A stretch of DNA of 64,000 nucleotides from an uncultured Clostridia bacterium (GTDB lineage: Bacteria; Bacillota; Clostridia; Oscillospirales; Ruminococcaceae), in assembly GCA_947168885.1 (NCBI GenBank), contig CAMVNQ010000001.1, positions 310,001 through 374,000 on the forward strand. The letters run 5' to 3'. A model generated the notes under the pieces. It saw only the letters and a list, made by a program, of their open reading frames with translations, had not been told where the DNA came from and ran no database searches. Numbering within the stretch: position 1 is the stretch's first letter; every line of letters begins with the position of its first letter. Below, piece after piece: positions 19,389 to 63,871 of the stretch. The translations under genes and the position numbers were made by a program.

Positions 19389-20825
19389 TTATGAGAGTGC
19401 TGCGAGCCTTTCGTTTGCTTCATCGATATAAGTCTGGGTAAGGTCTGCGAGAGCATCAACTGTATCGCCCCAAGGAGTTCCGTGGTTATAGCTTGCCTTG
19501 GTCTCTTCGTTGAGTTCGCCGTAGAGGTCGTCGTTGATAGTCTTCTGATAATCGAATACAGGGTGAGCATCGGTGAGTTCTCTTGCATGGATAAGCATAT
19601 CATACATTTCCTGTGTCCAGCCGTATTCGTTGAAGAGCTGGTTTTCTTCGATCTCCTTGACCTTTTCGTTGTCGCGGCAGATCATCACACAGTTGAGGTA
19701 AGCTGCTGTACCCTCGGGGTTCTTAGCGCCGAGCGGGATAGAGAAGCCCTTTACAACCGACGGCAGATACCATTCGTCAGCTTCCGGACATTTAGGCAGC
19801 GGAACGAACATGAGATCTTCCGTGGTCATACCCATACCCTCGATAGTTGTGGGTTCGTATAAGCAGTACGCACCCTTGGCGAAGAAGAGTGTCTTGCCCT
19901 GACCGATATTGAGCGGTATCTCTCTCTTTGTTACAGGCATAGGTATCTCTGCTCTGTTGAGCTTTAAGAAGAAGTCCTGTACTTTCTGTACCATAGGATC
20001 TTTAAGGTTATGTACGATCTTGCCGTCCTTCATTCCGACGTAAGGTACGCCGCAGGTGAGTGCGAAATCAGGCTCGAATTCCCAGCAGTCGATTCCGTAG
20101 ATCTCGTCCGCGGGGTTGCAGAACTTAGAGAACATATCGTACATAGCGTCCCAGTCCCATTCGCCGTCCATTACGAGCTGTGCGGGGTCGGAAAGACCGT
20201 TCTCCTCGATAGTCTTCTTATTGTAGATGAGAACTGTCTTGAGGTCGGTGGAAGTAAGACCGAGGTAGTGCTTGCCGTTCAGAGCAAACTGGTCGTTAAG
20301 CTCCTTGACGGGTGCCCAGAGCTCGGAATCATAGTCGATGTACTTGTCCATAGCCATGAATTTCTGCTGGAAGATTATGTTTCCGGGGATTATATCGAGG
20401 TCCTCGGCGCTGAACATATCGGGCGAGTCACCTGCGTTGACGAGGGTCGCGAGCTTGTCGTATCTGTCGTTCCATGAGCAGAGGTCGGTGACTATCTTTC
20501 CGCCAAGCTTTGTCTCGAACATCTCAAGAGCCGGGCTCTTGACCTGACCGCCTCTGGGGTTGAGGTCGAAGCACGCGAGAAGGTGAACTTCCTTGTTTTC
20601 GAGTTCGGGAAGATCTGTCTCGATCTCGTTGATGGCTTCCTTAGCTTCTTCCGCGAGTGTTGCGGGAGGAGTTGTGGTCGTAGTCTGTGCGGGTGCGGTA
20701 GTAGTTGCGTTAGGTGCTGCGGTAGCCTCCGGTCTTGCGCCGCCGTTTCCTCCGCACGCTCCGACGGATAAAATACAGGCAGCCGCGGTCACTGCGGTTA
20801 GTATTTTCTTGCCTATTTTTGTCAT
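19389..20825 (-). CDS. Extracellular solute-binding lipoprotein of an ABC importer
   Basis: 478 residues. Signal peptide with lipobox SVGAC (lipidated Cys24), then a Thr/Pro/Ala-rich linker to about residue 60, then a family 1 solute-binding fold: ALEMFETKLGGKI, WNDRYDKLATLVNAGDSPDMF and NGKHYLGL are typical of sugar binders. It captures a carbohydrate outside the membrane. No permease or ATPase gene is nearby, so it must use a transporter encoded elsewhere. Its promoter shares a GATATTAA box with the GH16 and GH5 glucanase genes, which hints at an oligoglucan ligand. Confidence 0.9.
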   Translation of the reverse strand: MTKIGKKILTAVTAAACILSVGACGGNGGARPEATAAPNATTTAPAQTTTTTPPATLAEEAKEAINEIETDLPELENKEVHLLACFDLNPRGGQVKSPALEMFETKLGGKIVTDLCSWNDRYDKLATLVNAGDSPDMFSAEDLDIIPGNIIFQQKFMAMDKYIDYDSELWAPVKELNDQFALNGKHYLGLTSTDLKTVLIYNKKTIEENGLSDPAQLVMDGEWDWDAMYDMFSKFCNPADEIYGIDCWEFEPDFALTCGVPYVGMKDGKIVHNLKDPMVQKVQDFFLKLNRAEIPMPVTKREIPLNIGQGKTLFFAKGAYCLYEPTTIEGMGMTTEDLMFVPLPKCPEADEWYLPSVVKGFSIPLGAKNPEGTAAYLNCVMICRDNEKVKEIEENQLFNEYGWTQEMYDMLIHARELTDAHPVFDYQKTINDDLYGELNEETKASYNHGTPWGDTVDALADLTQTYIDEANERLAALS

Positions 20826-20914: not shown

Positions 20915-20945
20915 ATTATATCACAAACGTGAGCCACTTAATATC
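20915..20945 (-). promoter_or_regulatory. Promoter of the solute-binding lipoprotein gene with GATATTAA box
   Basis: Leftward GATATTAA, 17 bases, TATAAT. The -35 region (TATTAA) is far from consensus but identical to that of the GH16 and GH5 genes, so activation by a shared regulator is likely. Confidence 0.65.
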
Positions 20946-20974
20946 ACAAATTTATTCTTTGTTTCATATTTTTG

Positions 20975-21262: not shown

Positions 21263-21315
21263 TACAGTCGGAATACTGTTCCGCAATATAAATTTTTTAA
21301 AGGAAAAACAAATAT

Positions 21316-23667
21316 ATGATAAAAGGATTTGAGAAAAAGCCCTCGGCTTTTGTCGAAGCAGTCAAAGCTGCCGCGGACGGCGGCAAAATAAGTAGTCTTG
21401 CCGCAGCAGCCCGCAGTGAAAAGGATGCTGTATCGGCTTTCGCCGCTGTATTCCTTGCGGTAAAGGAAGCTCTCGGCCTGACTCCGTTCGATTCACAGAT
21501 AATCGCAGGCGCTTACCTCGATGACGAAAACGCCGTCGAACTTGCAACAGGAGAAGGCAAAACGATAGCTGCTGTTTTCGCGGCATTCTATTCCGTTGTG
21601 TGCTGTGGTGAACACGTCCATATCCTGACATTCAATGACTATCTTGCAAAGCGTGACAGAGAATGGATGAAGCCGGTCTATGACCTGCTTGGCATCTCGA
21701 CTGCGTACATCACCGAAAAGTCGTCGCATGACGAGCGGAAAGCCGCGTATAAAGCAGATGTTCTCTATGCGACTGTCAAAGAGTGTGGATTTGACTTTTT
21801 GCGCGATTTCCTTGTTTCCTCGCCGGAAGAAACCGTGTGTGAAGGCTATGAACGCGCGATCGTTGATGAAGCCGATTCCCTGCTTATAGACGAAGCCCGT
21901 ATCCCTCTTGTTGCTGCGGGAGTAATGGACGTTGACACGGATAAGACGCTCCCCGAGGTGCTCGAATTTGCAAGAACGCTCGAAGAAGGCGACTATGAGA
22001 CCGACGAGGGTACGAAGACGGCGTATCTTACCCGCTCCGGCGAGGAAAAGACGGAAAAGCGGTTTGGCGTCGAAAACATATATGATGAGGCGAACAACGG
22101 ACTGCTCGCGCGGCTGAATGACTCGCTCAATGCGCTTTATGTGCTTAAAGAGGACAAGGACTACATTGTTAAGGACGGTGGCATACGCATTATAGACGCA
22201 TTCACCGGTCGTACCGCCGAAAACCGCAGTTACCCCGGCTTGCTCCAGTCGGCAGTTGAGCTCAAACACGGGCTTGAGGTTTCCGAGCGCGGTATAATTA
22301 TGGGAAGCATACCGATACAGTTTTTCCTGCGACAGTATAAGCGCATCTCCGGAATGACGGGAACGGCTGTCTCCGCTGCGGACGAGTTCGACGAACTGTA
22401 CGGTCTTGTCGTCAAGCACGTTGAGCCGAATACGCCGTCGATACGCGTCGATCTGCCCATGGCGGTGTATTACGATGAGGACAGCAAGCTTGCCGCGGTG
22501 GTGAACGAGGTCAAAACCGCACATGAAGCGCACAGACCTGTTCTCATCGGAACATCTGACATAGCGCAGAGCGAAAAGCTTTCTGAGCTGCTCACGGCTG
22601 CGGGGATAGAACATAATGTACTCAACGCCAAGAACGACGAAGCCGAGGCAGAGATCGTAAAGGGCGCGGGTATGCCCGATGCCGTCACCGTTTCGACGAA
22701 TATGGCGGGGCGCGGAGTTGACATAAAGCTCGGCGGTGCAGACGAGAAACGCCGTGACGAGGCTGTGGCAGCGGGAGGTCTGTACGCGATAGGCACTTTC
22801 CTTGCCGAGAGCGCGCGCATAAACGATCAGCTCCGTGGGCGTGCGGCGAGACAGGGCGACCCTGGACAGAGCAGGCTTTTTGTGTCGCTCGACGAGAAAA
22901 TTATGACGATATACCGGCTCAAAAAGCTGATACCGGCACATAAGTACCCCGAGCCGACGAAGGACGAGATAACGGAAAAGACCGTTGTGAAAGAGGTCGC
23001 ACGCATTCAGAAAATATCACAGGGCAAGACACTTGACGAGCGTGTCAGACTGCTGAAATTTACTATGATCGGCGAAAAGCACCGTGATCTTGTGTTCTCG
23101 GCGCGAAAAAAATATCTTACCGGAGAGAGCGTCCCGACGATATGGCAGGACGAATTCCCCGAGCGCTATGAAAAGGCGGTCAAGCTGTACGGCGAGGATA
23201 AGGTCGCCGAGATGCAGCTCGAATACATCAAATCGGCGATAAACTCGCGCTGGAGCGGGTATCTTGAATTTGCTTCATGGCTCCGCGAGAGCATACATCT
23301 CGCAGCTATCGGCGGAGAAGACCCTGCCGAGGAGTACAATATCCGCTGTGAGAGCTTTTATGAGACTATGAGCGAGGATCTGACGGAAGATATGGGCAAA
23401 GCGCTCGAAGCGCTGATAGCCAAAGGCGTTGACGGATTTAAGATACCGAAGCCCAAGCGTATCTTCACTTATCTGCTCGAAGATTCCGGCGACGAGCTCG
23501 AACGGCATTCGATAGCCGAAGCGCTTATGGGCGAAATAGATTACGATGAGTACGGTGAGGAATATGAATCGTACCGTCCGTCGGATTACAATAAGAAGGA
23601 AAAGGAGGACGAAAAAGCCGGGAAAACAGAGAAAAAAGGCTTTTTCGCGAAGCTTTTCAAGAAATGA
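21316..23667 (+). CDS. secA2: SecA-type preprotein translocase ATPase, short (accessory) form
   Basis: 783 residues, shorter than housekeeping SecA. Walker A ATGEGKT (near 78), DEAD-like VDEADSLLIDEARIPL (near 184), GMTGTA, TNMAGRGVDIKLGG and GRAARQGDPGQSR give a complete motor. The C-terminal zinc and SecB-binding motif is missing; instead there is a Lys/Glu-rich tail ending KKGFFAKLFKK, a likely membrane-contacting amphipathic helix. These traits fit an accessory SecA for special exports, but I cannot exclude that it is the only SecA. mnmE follows after 10 bases. The long structured leader is noted separately. Confidence 0.85.
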   Translation: MIKGFEKKPSAFVEAVKAAADGGKISSLAAAARSEKDAVSAFAAVFLAVKEALGLTPFDSQIIAGAYLDDENAVELATGEGKTIAAVFAAFYSVVCCGEHVHILTFNDYLAKRDREWMKPVYDLLGISTAYITEKSSHDERKAAYKADVLYATVKECGFDFLRDFLVSSPEETVCEGYERAIVDEADSLLIDEARIPLVAAGVMDVDTDKTLPEVLEFARTLEEGDYETDEGTKTAYLTRSGEEKTEKRFGVENIYDEANNGLLARLNDSLNALYVLKEDKDYIVKDGGIRIIDAFTGRTAENRSYPGLLQSAVELKHGLEVSERGIIMGSIPIQFFLRQYKRISGMTGTAVSAADEFDELYGLVVKHVEPNTPSIRVDLPMAVYYDEDSKLAAVVNEVKTAHEAHRPVLIGTSDIAQSEKLSELLTAAGIEHNVLNAKNDEAEAEIVKGAGMPDAVTVSTNMAGRGVDIKLGGADEKRRDEAVAAGGLYAIGTFLAESARINDQLRGRAARQGDPGQSRLFVSLDEKIMTIYRLKKLIPAHKYPEPTKDEITEKTVVKEVARIQKISQGKTLDERVRLLKFTMIGEKHRDLVFSARKKYLTGESVPTIWQDEFPERYEKAVKLYGEDKVAEMQLEYIKSAINSRWSGYLEFASWLRESIHLAAIGGEDPAEEYNIRCESFYETMSEDLTEDMGKALEALIAKGVDGFKIPKPKRIFTYLLEDSGDELERHSIAEALMGEIDYDEYGEEYESYRPSDYNKKEKEDEKAGKTEKKGFFAKLFKK

Positions 23668-23677
23668 AGGAGAACAT

Positions 23678-25039
23678 ATGCAAACGATAGCGGCAATAGC
23701 AACGCCCCCTGCGGAGGGTGGTATAGCAGTCATACGCATTTCGGGAGACAAAGCGGCTGATATTGCCGCGAATGTGTTCAGACCGGTAAACGGAAGGAAT
23801 ATATCGGAAATGAAAGGCTATACCGCCTGCTACGGTGAGATACACGACGGCGGCAAGCGCCTGGACGACGGTGTACTGCTTATTTACCGCGCCCCGCATA
23901 GCTATACGGGTGAGGATACTGCTGAAATTTCCTGTCACGGCGGAGTTTATGTCGCAAGGCGGGTGCTGTCGGCGTGCTTTTCTGCGGGAGCAGTTCCCGC
24001 ACAGGCAGGCGAGTTCACTAAACGTGCCCTGCTCAACGGGAAAATGTCGCTGACGCAGGCTGAAGCGGTCGCGGACGTGATAAGCGCACAGAATGAGCAG
24101 TTCCTTCTATGCTCGAAATCGCAGCAGGAAGGTGCTCTTTACCGACGGATAAAGGCAGTGTCGGAGAAACTGCTTACGCTTGTGACGCTGATACAGGCAT
24201 GGATAGACTATCCCGACGAAATGGAAGACGAGTTTGACGGAAACCTCGAAGCGGACAGGCTGCGAAGTGTTTCGGATGAGCTCACTAGGCTCATTGAGAG
24301 CCACGGCGAAGGTCAGCTCATAAAGGACGGCATCCCCTGTGCGATAGTGGGGCGGCCGAACGTCGGAAAATCGACGCTGATGAACCTGCTAACGGGCACG
24401 GAGCGCAGCATAGTCACCGATATTGAGGGCACTACCCGAGACATAGTCGAAGAGACTGTGTCGGTAGGCGGCGTTATGCTGCGGCTTGCGGACTGTGCGG
24501 GAATACGTGAGACGAACGATGTCGTTGAGAGTATCGGTGTTGAGCGAATGATAAAGAAGCTTGGCGAAGCGGCAGTAGTGCTTGCGGTGTTCGATCTAAG
24601 CAGACCTCTCGCGGACGATGACGAGCGGCTTATAAAGCTTCTTGACGGAAAGCGGGTCGTATGTATAGCGAACAAGACCGATCTCGAAGAAAAGGCAGAC
24701 GTTTCGGCACTCGAAAGCCGGTTCGGAAGTGTGGTCCGTATAAGTGCGAAAGACCCCGATTGCCTTGATACGGTGGCGAAAGCTGTCGCGGCGGTATCCG
24801 GACTTGGAAAGCTTGATCCCGGTGCGGGATTTATAGCGAACGAGCGCCAGCGGCTATGCGCGGAACAGGCAAGAGACGCTGTGAACGAAGCGTTTGCGGC
24901 GCTTGAAGGCGGTATGACGCTTGACGCAGTGAGTGTTATGTGTGAGACTGCGCTCGACAGGCTCTATGAGCTTTCGGGTGAGCAGGTAAGCGAGACGGTC
25001 GTGGATCAGGTATTCAGAAGATTCTGCGTCGGTAAATAA
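23678..25039 (+). CDS. mnmE: tRNA modification GTPase MnmE
   Basis: 453 residues from the ATG at 23678, which follows GAAGGAG. N-terminal folate-binding domain (MQTIAAIATPPAEGGIAVIR), helical domain, and inserted G domain with G1 GRPNVGKST (near 225), G2/G3 GTTRD and DCAG, and G4 NKTD (near 331). The protein ends FCVGK with the conserved cysteine. With MnmG it adds the carboxymethylaminomethyl group to U34 of certain tRNAs; mnmG is not adjacent here. Ten bases separate it from the secA-like gene, so both are probably cotranscribed. Confidence 0.96.
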   Translation: MQTIAAIATPPAEGGIAVIRISGDKAADIAANVFRPVNGRNISEMKGYTACYGEIHDGGKRLDDGVLLIYRAPHSYTGEDTAEISCHGGVYVARRVLSACFSAGAVPAQAGEFTKRALLNGKMSLTQAEAVADVISAQNEQFLLCSKSQQEGALYRRIKAVSEKLLTLVTLIQAWIDYPDEMEDEFDGNLEADRLRSVSDELTRLIESHGEGQLIKDGIPCAIVGRPNVGKSTLMNLLTGTERSIVTDIEGTTRDIVEETVSVGGVMLRLADCAGIRETNDVVESIGVERMIKKLGEAAVVLAVFDLSRPLADDDERLIKLLDGKRVVCIANKTDLEEKADVSALESRFGSVVRISAKDPDCLDTVAKAVAAVSGLGKLDPGAGFIANERQRLCAEQARDAVNEAFAALEGGMTLDAVSVMCETALDRLYELSGEQVSETVVDQVFRRFCVGK

Positions 25040-25051
25040 GGGGGTGAGCTT

Positions 25052-25810
25052 ATGCCGCAGAAACCTGATATGAAAAAGCTGCTCGCGGAGGTCGAGTTCA
25101 AAAACCGTGAGTATATGATAACTCACCTGTCATACGACCGCGAGATGGAGTTCTATCAGAGCGTCAAAATGGGCAACATCGATGAGACAATGCGCCTTTT
25201 CAAGCCCCTTTCAAGTGAGGGTCTCGGCAAGCTCAGCGACGACCCGCTTCGTAATCTGAAATATCATCTGATAATAACGATAGCATTCATCACGAGATAC
25301 TGCATAGAAGGCGGGCTGCCCATGGGAGAGGCGTATAACCTGAGCGACATCTTCATTCAGCGCGTCGATAAATGCAGCAGCGAAAACGAAGTAAACGCTA
25401 TCCACCGCGAAGTCATAGACACCTTCGTTCATTCAATGGACAGGCTTCACAACAGCCGCACATTCTCTCGCGCCGTGATGACCTGTATCGACTATATCTA
25501 TGACAATCTTCATTCAAAGATAACCCTCGATGACCTCGCGGATATAACCGGACTAAGCGCACCGTATCTATCCAAACTCTTTCACAAGGAAACCGGCGTG
25601 ACAGTCAAGCAGTATATTCTCCGCAAAAAAGTCGAGACTGCGGAGAATCTGCTCAAATTCTCGGATCAGCCCTGTTCCGCGATCTCGCATTACCTCGGCT
25701 TCGGCACCGAGAGCCATTTCATTTCGGTGTTCAAGAGCTGCACCAAGATAACGCCGAAGGAATACCGCGACCGCTTTTTCCGCAGCAGATGGGGCGACAA
25801 AAGCGAGTGA
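25052..25810 (+). CDS. AraC family transcriptional regulator
   Basis: 252 residues. The C-terminal 100 residues hold two helix-turn-helix units: ITLDDLADITGLSAPYLSKLFHKETG and PCSAISHYLGFGTESHFISVFK, ending in the typical KITPKEYRDRFF. The N-terminal domain is helical and unassigned. SD GGGGGTGA precedes the ATG; it lies 12 bases after mnmE. Target genes are unknown. A GATATTAA box at the -35 site of three glucan-related promoters in this window, with a second copy 20 bases upstream in one, has the spacing often used by AraC activators, so this is one candidate. Confidence 0.92.
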   Translation: MPQKPDMKKLLAEVEFKNREYMITHLSYDREMEFYQSVKMGNIDETMRLFKPLSSEGLGKLSDDPLRNLKYHLIITIAFITRYCIEGGLPMGEAYNLSDIFIQRVDKCSSENEVNAIHREVIDTFVHSMDRLHNSRTFSRAVMTCIDYIYDNLHSKITLDDLADITGLSAPYLSKLFHKETGVTVKQYILRKKVETAENLLKFSDQPCSAISHYLGFGTESHFISVFKSCTKITPKEYRDRFFRSRWGDKSE

Positions 25811-25866
25811 TGAAACCGTTTACAGCCTTTATGATTAAAATTTTTATATAAAAATTAAAAAAATAG

Positions 25867-25895
25867 TGGACATTTCAGAGATTATGTGGTAAAAT
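25867..25895 (+). promoter_or_regulatory. Promoter of the sortase-anchored surface protein gene
   Basis: TGGACA, 17 bases, TAAAAT, about 58 bases before the start codon. Confidence 0.7.
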
Positions 25896-25952
25896 ACATT
25901 TGTATGAGAGTAGGATATACTCTAATATTCAATTATGAAAGGAATTATTGCT

Positions 25953-26579
25953 ATGAAGATCAGAAAAATTTTAGCCGCTTTAGCAGCAACAGTCGTTGCA
26001 GTTTCTGCAATGGCAGTAAGCGCTTTCGCTGTTGAGATCAACAAGGATATGAAGTCTCACTGGACAGAGAGCACTATTATCGATGCGGAAACGTTCGCAT
26101 CCGAATTTGCGGACGCTACGCCCGATTCCGTATTTACTCTCACTCTTGAGGTCGATGAGTCCCTCGCAGATAAGAAGGGTCATGAGTACTGGTGCGTAAA
26201 AACCATGGTAAACGATACGGGCTGGCCGTTCATCGACAATCTCATCGGTGTTACGCTTTCAGAGGGCAAGGATACATACGTTGTAAATCCCGGCGATACA
26301 TACATCAAGTTCCAGATTCCCGCTGACGTTCTTGAGACACTTAACCAGACAGGTCTTGCGTTCATGGGTCACGGTGTAAAGCTCCTCGAACTCACTTGCT
26401 CCAACGACGAGACTCTTCCCGCTCCCGCAGCAGACACAGCTCCCGCAGCAGGAAACGTTGACGCGGCAACCGACAGCAGCAAGGGCTCTCCCGACACAGG
26501 TATAGCTGATGTTGCAGCAGTTGCAGGCATCGCAGTTCTTGCAGGCGGCGCATTCATCGTTGCTAAGAAGAGAAAGTAA
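25953..26579 (+). CDS. Secreted surface protein with SPDTG sorting signal
   Basis: 208 residues from the ATG at 25953, preceded by AAAGGA. A signal peptide (residues 1-26, ending SAFA), a single beta-rich domain of about 125 residues with two cysteines, an Ala/Pro/Asp spacer, and a C-terminal sorting signal: SPDTG (about 179-183), a hydrophobic stretch and the tail KKRK. The (S/N)PxTG form is the substrate motif known for Clostridioides difficile sortase B. Codon use favours the common codons, suggesting strong expression. The domain is not one I recognise. No sortase gene lies in the window. Confidence 0.85.
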   Translation: MKIRKILAALAATVVAVSAMAVSAFAVEINKDMKSHWTESTIIDAETFASEFADATPDSVFTLTLEVDESLADKKGHEYWCVKTMVNDTGWPFIDNLIGVTLSEGKDTYVVNPGDTYIKFQIPADVLETLNQTGLAFMGHGVKLLELTCSNDETLPAPAADTAPAAGNVDAATDSSKGSPDTGIADVAAVAGIAVLAGGAFIVAKKRK

Positions 26580-46896: not shown

Positions 46897-47751
46897 TCAG
46901 CTTTCAAACGGGGTGAATACGAGCCATTCATATTCGGCGGTAACGGGGAGCTTGTCGTCCTTGAACGCGTTGAGCCAGCCGTCAACACCTGTTCCGCACC
47001 ATGCGTTCGCCATTATCTTGCTGGGTGTCTGCGGAAGCTTTTCGGGTTCTCTTTCGACCTTGTGTACTTCAACGCCATCAACGAACCATGTGAGGCTGTC
47101 CTTGTGCCACTCGAAAGCGTATGTGTGGAAATCTTCCGACGCGTCAAAACCGAGGTCGTGCATATACTCGTGACCGCCCTTGCCATCAACGAAGTAATTG
47201 AACTGCACCTTTGTCGTGTCCTTACCGAGTATCTCAACGTCGATCTCGTCCCACGGGTTGTTGTCGGAAGGACCTGTATAGGTGAAGAATGACGAAACGA
47301 CGCCGTCGTTCTTTATTGCTTTCATGCTTATCTCATAGCGGCCGTAGCCGTAGAAGTCCTTGCTTCTGAATTCACCGCCGGAATAGGGGATACCGCCCTT
47401 CGGCTTGCTGTCGTTGTCTATAACGAGCTGCATTTTTCCGTCATTGAAAGTAACATTCGACTTACGCCATGTTACATTGAACATACTTCCGTTGCACCAG
47501 CCGTCGGATGCTTCAAAGCCGGCAGGCATACCGCTGCGGAAGTCGGAGTACTGTGCGCCTTCCGGTACGTCAACGAGCGTCGCAGCCTCAGTCGTCGTTT
47601 CCGGTGCCGACGTAGTCTCAGGTGCGGCTTCGGTAACTGCTGCTGTCGTTGTTGTCGCGGCAGTTGTGGTCGCTGCGGGCTGCTGTCCGCAGGCGCTGAA
47701 TATCATTGCGGAAAGAACTAACGGTAAAAAACTGTACTTTTTTATGTTCAT
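46897..47751 (-). CDS. Secreted GH16 beta-glucanase (licheninase-like) lipoprotein
   Basis: 284 residues. Signal peptide with lipobox IFSAC, a Thr/Ala/Glu-rich linker to about residue 60, then a GH16 jelly-roll domain. Catalytic residues are in DEIDVEILG (near 168-176), the EIDxE form; the surrounding GYGRYEISMKAIKNDGVVSSFFTYTGP segment is typical of beta-1,3-1,4-glucanases. It cuts mixed-linkage glucan at the cell surface. Shares a divergent intergenic region and a promoter box with the GH5 gene. Confidence 0.93.
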   Translation of the reverse strand: MNIKKYSFLPLVLSAMIFSACGQQPAATTTAATTTTAAVTEAAPETTSAPETTTEAATLVDVPEGAQYSDFRSGMPAGFEASDGWCNGSMFNVTWRKSNVTFNDGKMQLVIDNDSKPKGGIPYSGGEFRSKDFYGYGRYEISMKAIKNDGVVSSFFTYTGPSDNNPWDEIDVEILGKDTTKVQFNYFVDGKGGHEYMHDLGFDASEDFHTYAFEWHKDSLTWFVDGVEVHKVEREPEKLPQTPSKIMANAWCGTGVDGWLNAFKDDKLPVTAEYEWLVFTPFES

Positions 47752-47818: not shown

Positions 47819-47869
47819 ATTATAACACTTTGGTTACAGAATTAATATCATAAAATTATCTTTAATATC
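47819..47869 (-). promoter_or_regulatory. Promoter of the GH16 gene with two GATATTAA boxes
   Basis: Leftward GATATTAA (47842-47849), 17 bases, TATAAT (47819-47824). A second GATATTAA lies 20 bases further upstream (47862-47869), a spacing typical of AraC-type direct repeats. Confidence 0.7.
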
Positions 47870-47920
47870 GAAAAATTGCTCTAATAGCGGTTAAAATATT
47901 GCTATCAAGGATAAAAAAAT

Positions 47921-47951
47921 GATATTAATGCAACGCAGAATATGCTATAAT
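47921..47951 (+). promoter_or_regulatory. Promoter of the GH5 gene with GATATTAA box
   Basis: GATATTAA, 17 bases, TATAAT. A weaker copy, GCTATCAA, lies 20 bases upstream. Confidence 0.65.
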
Positions 47952-48035: not shown

Positions 48036-48992
48036 ATGAAGGAATTTAAAGGTTTCACAAAAGGCATAGACCTTGGCGGCTGGCTCTCACAGTGTGATTA
48101 CAGCAAAGAGCGTCTTGAGGGCTTCATCGTTGAAAAGGATATAGAAACGATAGCGTCCTGGGGAGCCGATCACGTTCGCGTCCCGATAGATTTCAATATC
48201 CTTGAGGACGACAACGGCGGCTATAGTGATGCGGGATTCGGTTATGTCAGGGGCGCGGTGGATATGTGCCTTAAGAACGGTCTCAATATTATTATAGATC
48301 TCCACAAGACAGCAGGTTTTTCATTCGACAAGGGCGAGCAGGAATTCGGATTCTTCGACAGCGAGGAGCTTCAGCAGCGCTTCTATCGTCTCTGGGAGGA
48401 GATCGCGCGCAGATTCTCGTATGACTCCGAACACATCGCGTTCGAGCTTCTCAATGAGGTCACGGACAAGGAATTCGGGCCGACATGGAACAAGGTGGCT
48501 AAGGAGTGCATCAGACGTATCCGTGCGATAGCGCCGGACACCGTGATACTTGTCGGAAGCTACTGGAACAACAGCGTGTGCTCGGTCAAGGATCTTGACC
48601 CGCCTTATGATGACAGGATAGTATATAACTTCCATTGTTATGATCCGCTGCTGTTCACTCATCAGCACGCATACTGGGTACCGCCGGAAATGGGCGATGT
48701 CAGCAAGGATATGACATTTGAAGAGAGCGGAGCTTCCGAAGAGTATTTTGAGAACCTCTTCTCCGAGGCGTTGCAGAAAGCTAAGGATAACAACACTGTC
48801 CTTTACTGCGGAGAGTACGGTGTCATAGATAAAGCCGCTCCCGAGGAAGCACTCAAGTGGTACAAGGCAATAAATGCTGTGTTCAGAAAGCACAACATCG
48901 GACGCTGTGCGTGGAGCTACAAGGAAATGGACTTCGGTATTTCCGATAAGCGCCTTGACGGCATCAGAGAAGAATTATTAAAATATATATAA
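48036..48992 (+). CDS. Intracellular GH5 family glycoside hydrolase (cellulase-like)
   Basis: 318 residues from the ATG at 48036, which follows GAAAGGGTG; longer versions have no ribosome site and would include the promoter. GKFxGIDLGGWLSQ-like start (GFTKGIDLGGWLSQ), acid/base Glu in FELLNEVTD (near 139) and nucleophile Glu in YCGEYGV (near 259) mark GH5. No signal peptide, so it acts on imported glucan oligosaccharides. With the divergent GH16 and the sugar-binding lipoprotein it makes a plausible beta-glucan pathway. Confidence 0.92.
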   Translation: MKEFKGFTKGIDLGGWLSQCDYSKERLEGFIVEKDIETIASWGADHVRVPIDFNILEDDNGGYSDAGFGYVRGAVDMCLKNGLNIIIDLHKTAGFSFDKGEQEFGFFDSEELQQRFYRLWEEIARRFSYDSEHIAFELLNEVTDKEFGPTWNKVAKECIRRIRAIAPDTVILVGSYWNNSVCSVKDLDPPYDDRIVYNFHCYDPLLFTHQHAYWVPPEMGDVSKDMTFEESGASEEYFENLFSEALQKAKDNNTVLYCGEYGVIDKAAPEEALKWYKAINAVFRKHNIGRCAWSYKEMDFGISDKRLDGIREELLKYI

Positions 48993-61558: not shown

Positions 61559-63871
61559 TCATTTCACAAGCACTTCAACGTGCGTATCATCGATGCGTTT
61601 AAGCACTCTCGCTCTTGTCGCAGATTTCGAGTATGCCGCTGTGCCGTTCTTTGCTGTGCAGTATCCGCCTGTTTTGCAGCTCCCGTCGTCTATAACGATA
61701 AGTCTGCCGACAAGCCCTACTGCCGCCCATTCGGGACGCTGTTCACGCGGAATGTACTTCTTTTCGGGGTCATAGTCGGGATTTAATATCGGCTCTCCGT
61801 CTTTGTCCCTGATCGTGCAGCCGAACACATCGCGTTTGTATTTGTCCTGCCAGTGCAGTGCCGCGCTGTTGCCGACAACAGAAGGTTTTGCAGATACAAC
61901 GCCGAGAAACCCGTTTCCGTTCGCGGGAACGATCTTATCACCGTCGAGCGCAACGAGCATTCCGCGCCTGTCTTCGTTTTCGGGATTTCCGTCCGCCCAC
62001 TCGAAATATTCGGCGTAGTCCGCGCCCATTGTGTTGTAGTTTCCCGCAATGTATATATCTCCGAGGGAAGTTGCGTACATCGCGTTTCCGGTTCCTGCTC
62101 CATAGCCGTGCGAGCCTATAACAAATCTTGTGCTATTGGGTAAATTTGTTGTGTCCGCACCGAAACCTACCGCCCAACAGCCACCTTTATCAACAATATT
62201 GCTGTCGCCTATGCAGCCGCAATACCCACTTGTTACAGTATTGTTAGAGCCAAAAACGAACTGATTGTCTTTTCCTACAACGGTGTTTGAGCTTCCGGCG
62301 ATTATTCCCGCATACATAGCGCTATTGACTATCAGGTTAGAAGCCCCGACAATAATGCTGTTTGTCGCTCCGGAATAAACCTTGTTGTAGCTACCAGCGA
62401 CGAAAGAAAATGAAATGCCGCCCCTGACCTCGTTGTTGAAACCTGTAAGCACAAATCCCGTGCTGCCGGAATTAGTCATTACGTTCTTATTGCCGCTGAT
62501 CAAAGCCGAATCGACATTTGTTATGTCATTTTCACTGCCGCCTATATGCGTTTTTTGTGAGCCTGTGAGCGTGTTTTTATAACCCTCTGCGTGATTATAA
62601 TCGCCGCTTGTTATCGTGCACCCGTCTGCCGCTGTATAGCCGTTGAAACGTTCGTTGTGCTGTCCGACGTTCTCCCCTACACCGCCGCCGCCCGAAGTGT
62701 CTATCGCGTCTATGCGTTTCTGCGTCTGCGATCTTGTCTGTGTGGAAGAGAACGTTGAGACAAGTGAACCAACACAGTCCGCTGCGCTGCAATTTATAAC
62801 GTGCCCTACGCGATAGTTCCATTCGTATGATGTGACAACTCCGATGATACCGCTGCGCTGGTCAACGTCACCACCTCTGAACATAAGCGTGTCTCCGACA
62901 TCTATTGCGGGGTCACCGTAGATGCAGGTCTTTATGCCTCTCTGTTTGAACGAGTCTATATATCCGAGCCACGCACGGTTTGCGGTATCATATTCGGCAT
63001 CTGTCTTTCCTGCGAGAAGCGGGTTCTTGTCGAGCGCGTAAGCTGCCGGAGCAGCCTGTGTATCCGGCGAGACATACGTCGAAGTATAGTTTGTTATTTT
63101 GTCTCCCGTGTAGGCGGACATATATTTTATATACGCTCTTGTATCGGTCGCGTAAATATATCTGCGCTCATTTGCGGTGACTTCTCTGTCTGTTGAAATG
63201 GCACTTCCCGATGAAGAGTATTTCGCAGGTATTATCTTAAGCTTCGAGTTCCTGTCGATCACCGCATATCCGCAAAGCAGGTAAGCGCACCACATTATGA
63301 TGTCCCTGCATGACTGTATCTGCCTGTCCGCAGGGGTTACCGTCAGAGCGTTGTTCGGAAAACCGTCAAGGCTGTCGTCCTCTATATCCGTATCTATACC
63401 GCATTCCGTGCAGGCAGCGATTATAATTTCCGCCGGCGTTCCTGTCATTTCCCGCAGAGCCGCCGAAGGCTCTTTGTCCGCTTTCACTCCGTCGTCGTAT
63501 GCCACAATCGAGATGACGTTCCCGCGTCTTGACGAAAGTATCGGGTCAACGAGGAATGTCCCGAGCGGCACTGCCTCGAACGACTCTCCGACCGCCGCAA
63601 GCTTGTATGAAAGCGAAACACTGCCGCCTGTGAGATCGAGAGCGGCAGCGTCGTCCGTGAAAAATGAAAATCTCAGGCAGGAGAGATTGAATGTCCCTAT
63701 GCGGTATTTTTCGCCGCAGAGTTCCTTTGTGAGCTTGAGAGAGCCGCTCACGAGGTTGCTGTCGTTTATTGTGATACTGTCACTTTCCGGAAGTGTCAGA
63801 CTGCCTGTCACAGCCTCTTTCACCGCTTTTGACGCAAGAGCGTCAATGTATGACTGACTTACGTTGTACAT
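61559..63871 (-). CDS. Phage tail fibre/tip protein with C-terminal autocleavage (Peptidase_G2-like) domain
   Basis: 770 residues. The first 390 resemble prophage tail-associated proteins that follow the distal tail gene (YIDALASKAVKEAVTGSLTLP at the start). A glycine-rich joint (DTSGGGGVGENVG) leads to a beta-helical stretch of about 180 residues rich in SGNKNVMTNSG-, GSYNKVYSG- and GSSNTVVGKDN-like repeats, as in trimeric fibre shafts. The C-terminal 170 residues (GADYAEYFEWADGNPENEDRRGMLVALDG..., GFLGVVSAKPSVVGNSAALHW) match the intramolecular chaperone/autocleavage domain called Peptidase_G2. SD AAGGAG precedes the ATG. Confidence 0.85.
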   Translation of the reverse strand: MYNVSQSYIDALASKAVKEAVTGSLTLPESDSITINDSNLVSGSLKLTKELCGEKYRIGTFNLSCLRFSFFTDDAAALDLTGGSVSLSYKLAAVGESFEAVPLGTFLVDPILSSRRGNVISIVAYDDGVKADKEPSAALREMTGTPAEIIIAACTECGIDTDIEDDSLDGFPNNALTVTPADRQIQSCRDIIMWCAYLLCGYAVIDRNSKLKIIPAKYSSSGSAISTDREVTANERRYIYATDTRAYIKYMSAYTGDKITNYTSTYVSPDTQAAPAAYALDKNPLLAGKTDAEYDTANRAWLGYIDSFKQRGIKTCIYGDPAIDVGDTLMFRGGDVDQRSGIIGVVTSYEWNYRVGHVINCSAADCVGSLVSTFSSTQTRSQTQKRIDAIDTSGGGGVGENVGQHNERFNGYTAADGCTITSGDYNHAEGYKNTLTGSQKTHIGGSENDITNVDSALISGNKNVMTNSGSTGFVLTGFNNEVRGGISFSFVAGSYNKVYSGATNSIIVGASNLIVNSAMYAGIIAGSSNTVVGKDNQFVFGSNNTVTSGYCGCIGDSNIVDKGGCWAVGFGADTTNLPNSTRFVIGSHGYGAGTGNAMYATSLGDIYIAGNYNTMGADYAEYFEWADGNPENEDRRGMLVALDGDKIVPANGNGFLGVVSAKPSVVGNSAALHWQDKYKRDVFGCTIRDKDGEPILNPDYDPEKKYIPREQRPEWAAVGLVGRLIVIDDGSCKTGGYCTAKNGTAAYSKSATRARVLKRIDDTHVEVLVK

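Follow-up and report, generated by a model that had tools for sequence, protein, structure and literature searches.

The window analyzed here is a stretch of 64,000 nucleotides from the genome of an uncultured Ruminococcaceae bacterium (GenBank contig CAMVNQ010000001.1, positions 310,001 to 374,000). It carries genes for a probable sugar-binding lipoprotein (SBP, or binder) of an ATP-binding cassette (ABC) importer, a GH16 lipoprotein, a GH5 endoglucanase and an AraC-family regulator, the GH16 and GH5 genes being separated by 21 kb from the AraC gene and by some 27 kb from the promoter of SBP. The question raised by this locus is whether genes that lie so far apart are controlled together, and if so, through which site and by which protein. 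We found that the three enzyme and binder promoters carry a 36-bp tandem operator ahead of an extended −10 element, and we consider it very likely that the AraC protein encoded at 25052-25810 binds this operator and activates the glucan genes.

Three promoters share a tandem operator

A sequence-only reading of the window had proposed that the three promoters share a short box in place of the −35 consensus. Direct reading bore this out: GATATTAA, exactly 17 bases and TATAAT are present at 20945-20915 (−), 47849-47819 (−) and 47921-47951 (+), each GATATTAA box is preceded by T, and the base before that T is G or A in all three promoters. The box supplies TATTAA at the −35 position, which agrees with TTGACA at only two of six positions. 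The second exact box noticed 20 bp upstream in the GH16 promoter (47869-47862, −) and the 6/8 match upstream in the GH5 promoter (47901-47908) are likewise present. Two further features had been overlooked, namely a 5/8 match in the binder promoter, GAAACAAA, at the same 20-bp spacing, and the extension of the −10 hexamer (TGnTATAAT) in all three promoters (TGATATAAT, TGTTATAAT and TGCTATAAT). Because all three −10 hexamers are extended, the promoters may function without a −35 hexamer. The sites, together with a degraded copy described below, are as follows.

20915..20974 (−): SBP gene; tandem operator at 20974-20939 and, after a gap of 15 bp, a promoter with the extended −10 TGATATAAT at 20923-20915; matrix score 47.7, profile E 3.4e-9
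47819..47878 (−): GH16 gene; tandem operator at 47878-47843 and a promoter with the extended −10 TGTTATAAT at 47827-47819; matrix score 45.2, profile E 8.3e-8
47892..47951 (+): GH5 gene; tandem operator at 47892-47927 and a promoter with the extended −10 TGCTATAAT at 47943-47951; matrix score 41.5, profile E 1.1e-8
25836..25895 (+): degraded operator copy before the gene of a wall-anchored protein; upstream half TATATAAA kept, downstream half AGTGGAC, extended −10 TGGTAAAAT

The full extent of the element became apparent in relatives, most of which belong to the same genus and from which GH5, SBP, AraC and GH16 orthologues were gathered. The box recurs in their promoters, where it is frequently accompanied by another copy 20 bp further upstream. 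Expectation maximization (EM) from 60 random starts was applied to 60 upstream regions of the relatives only (23 SBP, 20 GH5 and 17 GH16), with the window excluded and identical regions and regions shorter than 250 bases dropped. Of the eight runs listed, the three that ended with the highest scores (1152, 1106 and 845, versus at most 782) had converged on the tandem repeat. The operator consists of two YAAAAWTnYGATAT copies with a 20-bp spacing, followed by the extended −10 TGnTATAAT; the consensus after seeded refinement was YAAAAWWnYGATATAAAARn-YAAAAWTnYGATATWA, 15 poorly conserved bases and TGnTATAAT. The box of the sequence-only reading is real, but it is only the promoter-proximal end of this operator, which, as judged from the −10 element, would occupy roughly positions −66 to −31.

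After refinement, 52 of the 60 training regions scored at least 22 and eight scored below 0. Two of the eight (the SBP regions of L199 and L201) lie downstream of a GH5 lipoprotein gene that carries its own site, and two (the GH5 regions of L185 and L220) lie directly behind GH16. The site is present in three others (L183 SBP, L184 SBP and L220 GH16, the last at L220:7945), the low scores of which probably reflect a called gene start placed too far upstream; the SBP region of L225 is the remaining one.

One could envision an alternative sigma factor that recognizes the box as its −35 element, as the fixed 17-bp spacing to TATAAT might suggest. The −10 element, however, is an ordinary extended −10, and conservation extends over a tandem repeat of 36 bp, the distal copy of which a sigma factor would not need. 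We have rejected this explanation as having a negligible probability.

The operator is confined to these promoters in the own genome

When both strands of the window were scanned with the refined matrix, the three promoters ranked first to third (47.7, 45.2 and 41.5), while the maximum in 20 simulated Markov windows, one strand each, was 0.7. The fourth best score in the window, 19.9, belongs to the degraded site before the wall-anchored protein gene; this site is not among the 26 matches of the genome-wide profile search described below. An operator-only match (score 22.5) at 21289-21324 (+), without a −10 element, overlaps the start codon of a secA-like gene; it is probably due to chance and is also absent from the 26 profile matches.

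The own genome comprises 3.78 Mb in 32 contigs. The pattern (A/G)TGATATTAA-N17-TATAAT (RTGATATTAA-N17-TATAAT) occurs in it exactly three times, always in the window, and the reversed control gave no match. The looser GATATTAA-N17-TANNNT gave four matches versus one in its reversed control, and TGATATTAA-N14-TGNTATAAT with up to three mismatches gave 37 (three exact, one with one mismatch, three with two and 30 with three) versus 15 in the reversed control. A calibrated profile was built from 30 sites of the relatives, the window's own sites not being used in training, and 150 of 2471 first-look candidates were scored with it. It placed the three promoters at the top genome-wide, with E-values of 3.4e-9 (binder), 1.1e-8 (GH5) and 8.3e-8 (GH16). 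The next-best match (E 0.0098) covers 38 of the 60 model positions and is separated from them by five orders of magnitude. Six of the near-miss sites lie in seven loci that were inspected (L040 and L292 represent one site), and no glucan gene was recognized there as judged from N-termini. The pattern is therefore not frequent at unrelated promoters of this genome, with no further exact match and none near by profile; it is both real and larger than had been claimed.

Since the three sites were first picked by eye, their likeness might have been a chance resemblance among A+T-rich promoters. The genome scan, the EM refinement, the matrix ranking in the window and the search with the relatives-only profile led us to reject this explanation, which we find scarcely credible.

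The operator is conserved upstream of glucan genes in relatives

Conservation was evaluated in held-out loci (L228-L282), which were picked by AraC similarity and had not been used in training; regions identical to training ones were excluded. A site with a score of 15 or more stands upstream of 27 of 27 GH5, 14 of 19 GH16, 4 of 4 NPXTG (wall-anchored protein) and 5 of 6 SBP genes, compared with 14 of 623 other genes. For the four targets combined (50/56), the difference from other genes has a p value of 7e-56, calculated on related sequences that are not independent. Nine of the 14 "other" genes were checked for family membership: six encode glucan-type enzymes (two GH5, two GH3, one GH149 and one GH94), two encode lipoproteins beside permeases with no family match (that of L267 scanned, that of L248 judged by look only), and one encodes a leucine-rich-repeat protein.

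In the window and L183-L282 together, training loci included, there are 166 distinct operator-plus-promoter sites, positioned before GH5 (48), GH16 (34), SBP (26), NPXTG (22), AraC (8) and other (20) genes, or with no called gene downstream (8). Operator matches in the 66 clostridial AraC loci of L203-L282, again with training loci, number 131 in 118 kb of intergenic sequence versus 6 in 890 kb of coding sequence. The wall-anchored protein gene is a fourth member of the set in relatives, where its orthologues have better operator copies than the degraded one of the window. In two genomes (G033, contig C8, and G007, contig C66), the operator also stands before a more distant GH16 gene (51-53% identity) outside the AraC locus.

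The short box was also used to scan 149 genomes, 40 of which contain a match to TGATATTAA-N17-TANNNT. Of the listed matches, none but the own three and one in G021 (C10) ends in TATAAT, and a match in G057 (C104) sits before an NPXTG gene. Outside the own genome, the full operator serves as a better marker than the short box, which by itself performs poorly. In eight loci of the relatives (L183-L188, L194 and L196), the five-gene locus is reshuffled in order and orientation, with most transcription units keeping their own operator.

The operator co-occurs with the AraC gene

The sequence-only reading had linked the binder to the distant glucanases and had named the AraC protein as the candidate regulator. 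Both proposals gained support from the relatives, in many of which the binder, GH16, GH5 and AraC orthologues are found together, with the full tandem site upstream of the target genes. In 20 stretches mapped from 18 genomes, the AraC, SBP, NPXTG, GH16 and GH5 genes lie within 20 kb of one another in eight genomes, in varying order, and the same set minus GH16 does so in two more. The presence of the operator also tracks that of the AraC gene. With thresholds of E<1e-60 for an AraC orthologue and E<=1e-3 for the operator, the profile search of 60 genomes detected the operator in 18 of 21 AraC-bearing genomes and in 1 of 39 AraC-less ones. When the eight genomes that had donated sites to the profile were removed, the proportions were 10/13 (own genome included) versus 1/15 same-genus genomes lacking AraC (Fisher p 2.7e-4). 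It is this co-occurrence that suggests the assignment of the tandem site to the AraC protein.

Several observations weigh against such an assignment. Of the 21 AraC-bearing genomes, three have no site at the threshold used (G009 and G027 have weaker ones, E 0.0083 and 0.0013, and G012 has none), and G008 possesses a site with no AraC orthologue detected. The AraC/SBP and GH16/GH5 pairs are on different contigs in 7 of the 18 mapped genomes, and thus physical linkage is not universal; the split, which resembles the dispersal of the genes in the window, could represent either contig breaks or true dispersal. In one further mapped genome (G023), no GH5 or GH16 gene was found. Lastly, AraC genes themselves mostly lack the operator (5/47 in the held-out loci), so autoregulation is not general.

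Alternatively, the tandem site might be real but bound by another regulator, with the AraC gene being a bystander at the locus. In favor of this reading, a secA-like gene and mnmE (21316-25039) stand between the binder and AraC genes in the window, GH16 is 21 kb from AraC, G008 has its site with no AraC orthologue detected, and a paralogue of the AraC protein is encoded elsewhere in the genome (C11:44368, 41% identity). None of the 26 profile matches is on contig C11, however, and the AraC gene accompanies the target genes through several rearranged versions of the locus, in addition to the correlation across the 60 genomes. Moreover, AraC-family regulators of Caldicellulosiruptor bescii likewise use tandem repeats upstream of promoters (PMC8579813, cited here from the accessible part of its text). 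We regard control by another regulator as unlikely. Neither the secA-like gene nor mnmE was found in the 20 stretches from relatives (E 1e-12), and the secA-like gene product scores below every NCBIfam SecA/SecA2 cut-off listed.

A proposed model for activation

We propose that two AraC subunits would sit on the tandem repeat, both on approximately the same face of the DNA, with the proximal subunit over the −35 region, and that bound AraC would recruit RNA polymerase to extended −10 promoters devoid of a −35 hexamer. An arrangement of this type is termed class II, for which AraC itself provides a precedent. A class II complex of RamA (7bef) was one of the structures that the AraC model matched in fold. 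The signal is probably an imported glucan oligosaccharide, in response to which three separate transcripts would be switched on for the use of mixed-linkage or beta-1,3-containing glucan. Their products would be a surface GH16 lichenase, the binding lipoprotein of an importer and a cytosolic CelC-like GH5 enzyme, with a wall-anchored, probably glucan-binding protein added in relatives. From their promoters, the scattered binder, GH16 and GH5 genes look like one small co-regulated set.

Alternatively, AraC could repress by covering the −35 region, which the site does overlap, with the sugar relieving repression. We infer activation instead, given that promoters with a −35 match of 2/6 are expected to be weak by themselves, and that the sites of all four single-component AraC-type regulators of C. 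bescii are upstream of promoters and were read as those of activators (PMC8579813). A further point is that an AraC-containing locus of Blautia producta is raised about 4-5 fold on barley beta-glucan (PMC10318527, in the part of the article available), a response that does not distinguish relief from activation. Repression appears quite improbable to us.

The C. bescii activators resemble the proposed system in having tandem repeats upstream of mapped promoters but respond to other sugars; "laminar", "mixed-linkage" and "lichenan" do not occur in the main text of PMC8579813 as accessible. The B. producta mixed-linkage beta-glucan locus, with homologues reported in Lachnospiraceae and Treponema, combines an AraC-type regulator with a surface GH16 glucanase and an SBP, as does the window set. 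The six genes listed for it, however, include GH94 and ABC transporter subunits and neither GH5 nor a wall-anchored protein, and no operator is described, the word "promoter" being absent from the accessible text (PMC10318527).

How rumen and gut Clostridia sense cereal or forage beta-glucan is little known, and B. producta is the one case that we found (PMC10318527). No description of this operator, or of an AraC glucan regulon in Ruminococcus-like bacteria, was found in the open PMC subset. AraC activators with tandem sites are already known; the proposed regulon is new and well supported without being a new kind of system. It offers a candidate regulator with a short list of targets, a defined 36-bp operator combined with a promoter of the activator type, and a wall-anchored protein that is likely to represent a new glucan-binding one, and it illustrates that a dispersed gene set can be recognized as one system through promoter sequence.

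Treponema and the spread of the cassette

AraC relatives are also located among glucan genes in Treponema, and all 14 spirochaete sequences cluster together in a tree of 77 AraC proteins. At the Treponema AraC loci, operator-like sequences number 15 in 19.8 kb of intergenic versus 4 in 227 kb of coding sequence, and the intergenic ones are distributed over 8 of the 14 loci, which suggests that the operator may be conserved there. Two results argue to the contrary. The sites are weak, in that the best match of the clostridial profile in whole-genome searches is, by coordinates, at the AraC locus in only one of nine Treponema genomes (T. zioleckii, E 0.0017); of two clostridial genomes in the same search, one has its best match at this locus (L235) and the other only its third best (L243). 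In addition, unseeded discovery in Treponema (L249 and L265 left out) returned translation-start signals and no operator.

In four Treponema loci (L248, L254, L267 and L281), the AraC relative is encoded beside a protein of about 1,100 residues. This protein passes the cut-off for GH149 1,3-beta-glucan phosphorylase in L248 and L267, and those of L254 and L281 share its N-terminus. Clusters of GH149 with AraC or LacI regulators are described for Proteobacteria (PMC5827456, accessible part). The four Treponema loci hint at a shared beta-glucan control in Clostridia and Spirochaetes. We tentatively suggest, with somewhat less confidence than would be needed to favor it, that AraC and the 20-bp-repeat operator travel together as a portable cassette in rumen and gut Clostridia and, in a diverged state, have also reached Treponema. 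Such a cassette would capture host-specific GH5, GH16, GH3, GH94 and GH149 genes and importers and, in Gram-positives, a wall-anchored single-domain form of the Bacteroides module that binds mixed-linkage glucan.

Proteins of the set

The proteins of the set that are encoded in the window are as follows.

19389..20825 (−): SBP, 478 aa, probably the lipoprotein through which an ABC importer binds sugar; SBP_bac_8 22.2 bits, below the cut-off of 27; 5f7v E 4.6e-4
25052..25810 (+): AraC-family regulator, 252 aa, proposed activator; helical N-terminal domain and AraC helix-turn-helix (HTH)
25935..26579 (+): wall-anchored protein, small and secreted, the C-terminus of which (SPDTG) resembles a wall-sorting signal; Rumino_NPXTG 21.4 bits, below the cut-off of 23.5; predicted beta-sandwich
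46897..47751 (−): GH16 lipoprotein of lichenase type (1,3-1,4-beta-glucanase); NF047856 325 bits, cut-off 300; 3wvj E 7.6e-77
48036..48992 (+): GH5 endoglucanase, CelC-like, no visible signal peptide; 1cec (CelC) E 8.5e-61

The lipoprotein signals of SBP and GH16 were read by eye, and the wall-anchored protein may in fact start at the ATG at 25953. A Pfam scan covering 30 of the window proteins revealed neither an importer permease nor a GH94 protein. LicA of Clostridium thermocellum is a GH16 lichenase. CelC, a GH5 enzyme and the closest solved relative of the window GH5, is co-regulated with LicA in the celC-glyR3-licA system, which is a functional counterpart of the set; it differs in having a LacI-type repressor that is released by laminaribiose from a partly palindromic operator, in contrast to the AraC type and direct repeat of the window (PMC5483248, accessible part).

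The AraC protein matches HTH_18 (68.6 bits, cut-off 33.6) and HTH_AraC (59.3 bits, cut-off 26.6). Its predicted model (pLDDT 82, pTM 0.51) has an all-helical N-terminal part at residues 7-135 and a standard double-HTH domain, the latter matching the HTH domains of MarA, AraC and YesN. The N-terminal sensor of AraC has a cupin-like fold. Among the best 50 Foldseek matches of the model, AraC-type ones aligned over at least 150 columns have a root-mean-square deviation of at least 5.1, and the close matches span only about the HTH half.

The best match to the model of the wall-anchored protein is a domain of Bacteroides ovatus SGBP-B (PDB 6e57 and 6e9b), which binds mixed-linkage glucan, and therefore a mixed-linkage-glucan substrate is supported. 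The predicted fold is the same at 14% identity. Unlike SGBP-B, the window protein would comprise one domain only and terminate in a wall-sorting-like sequence of the Gram-positive type, and its glucan binding is putative. Elsewhere in the window, a 770-residue protein with a Peptidase_G2 autoproteolytic domain is encoded at 61559-63871 (−).
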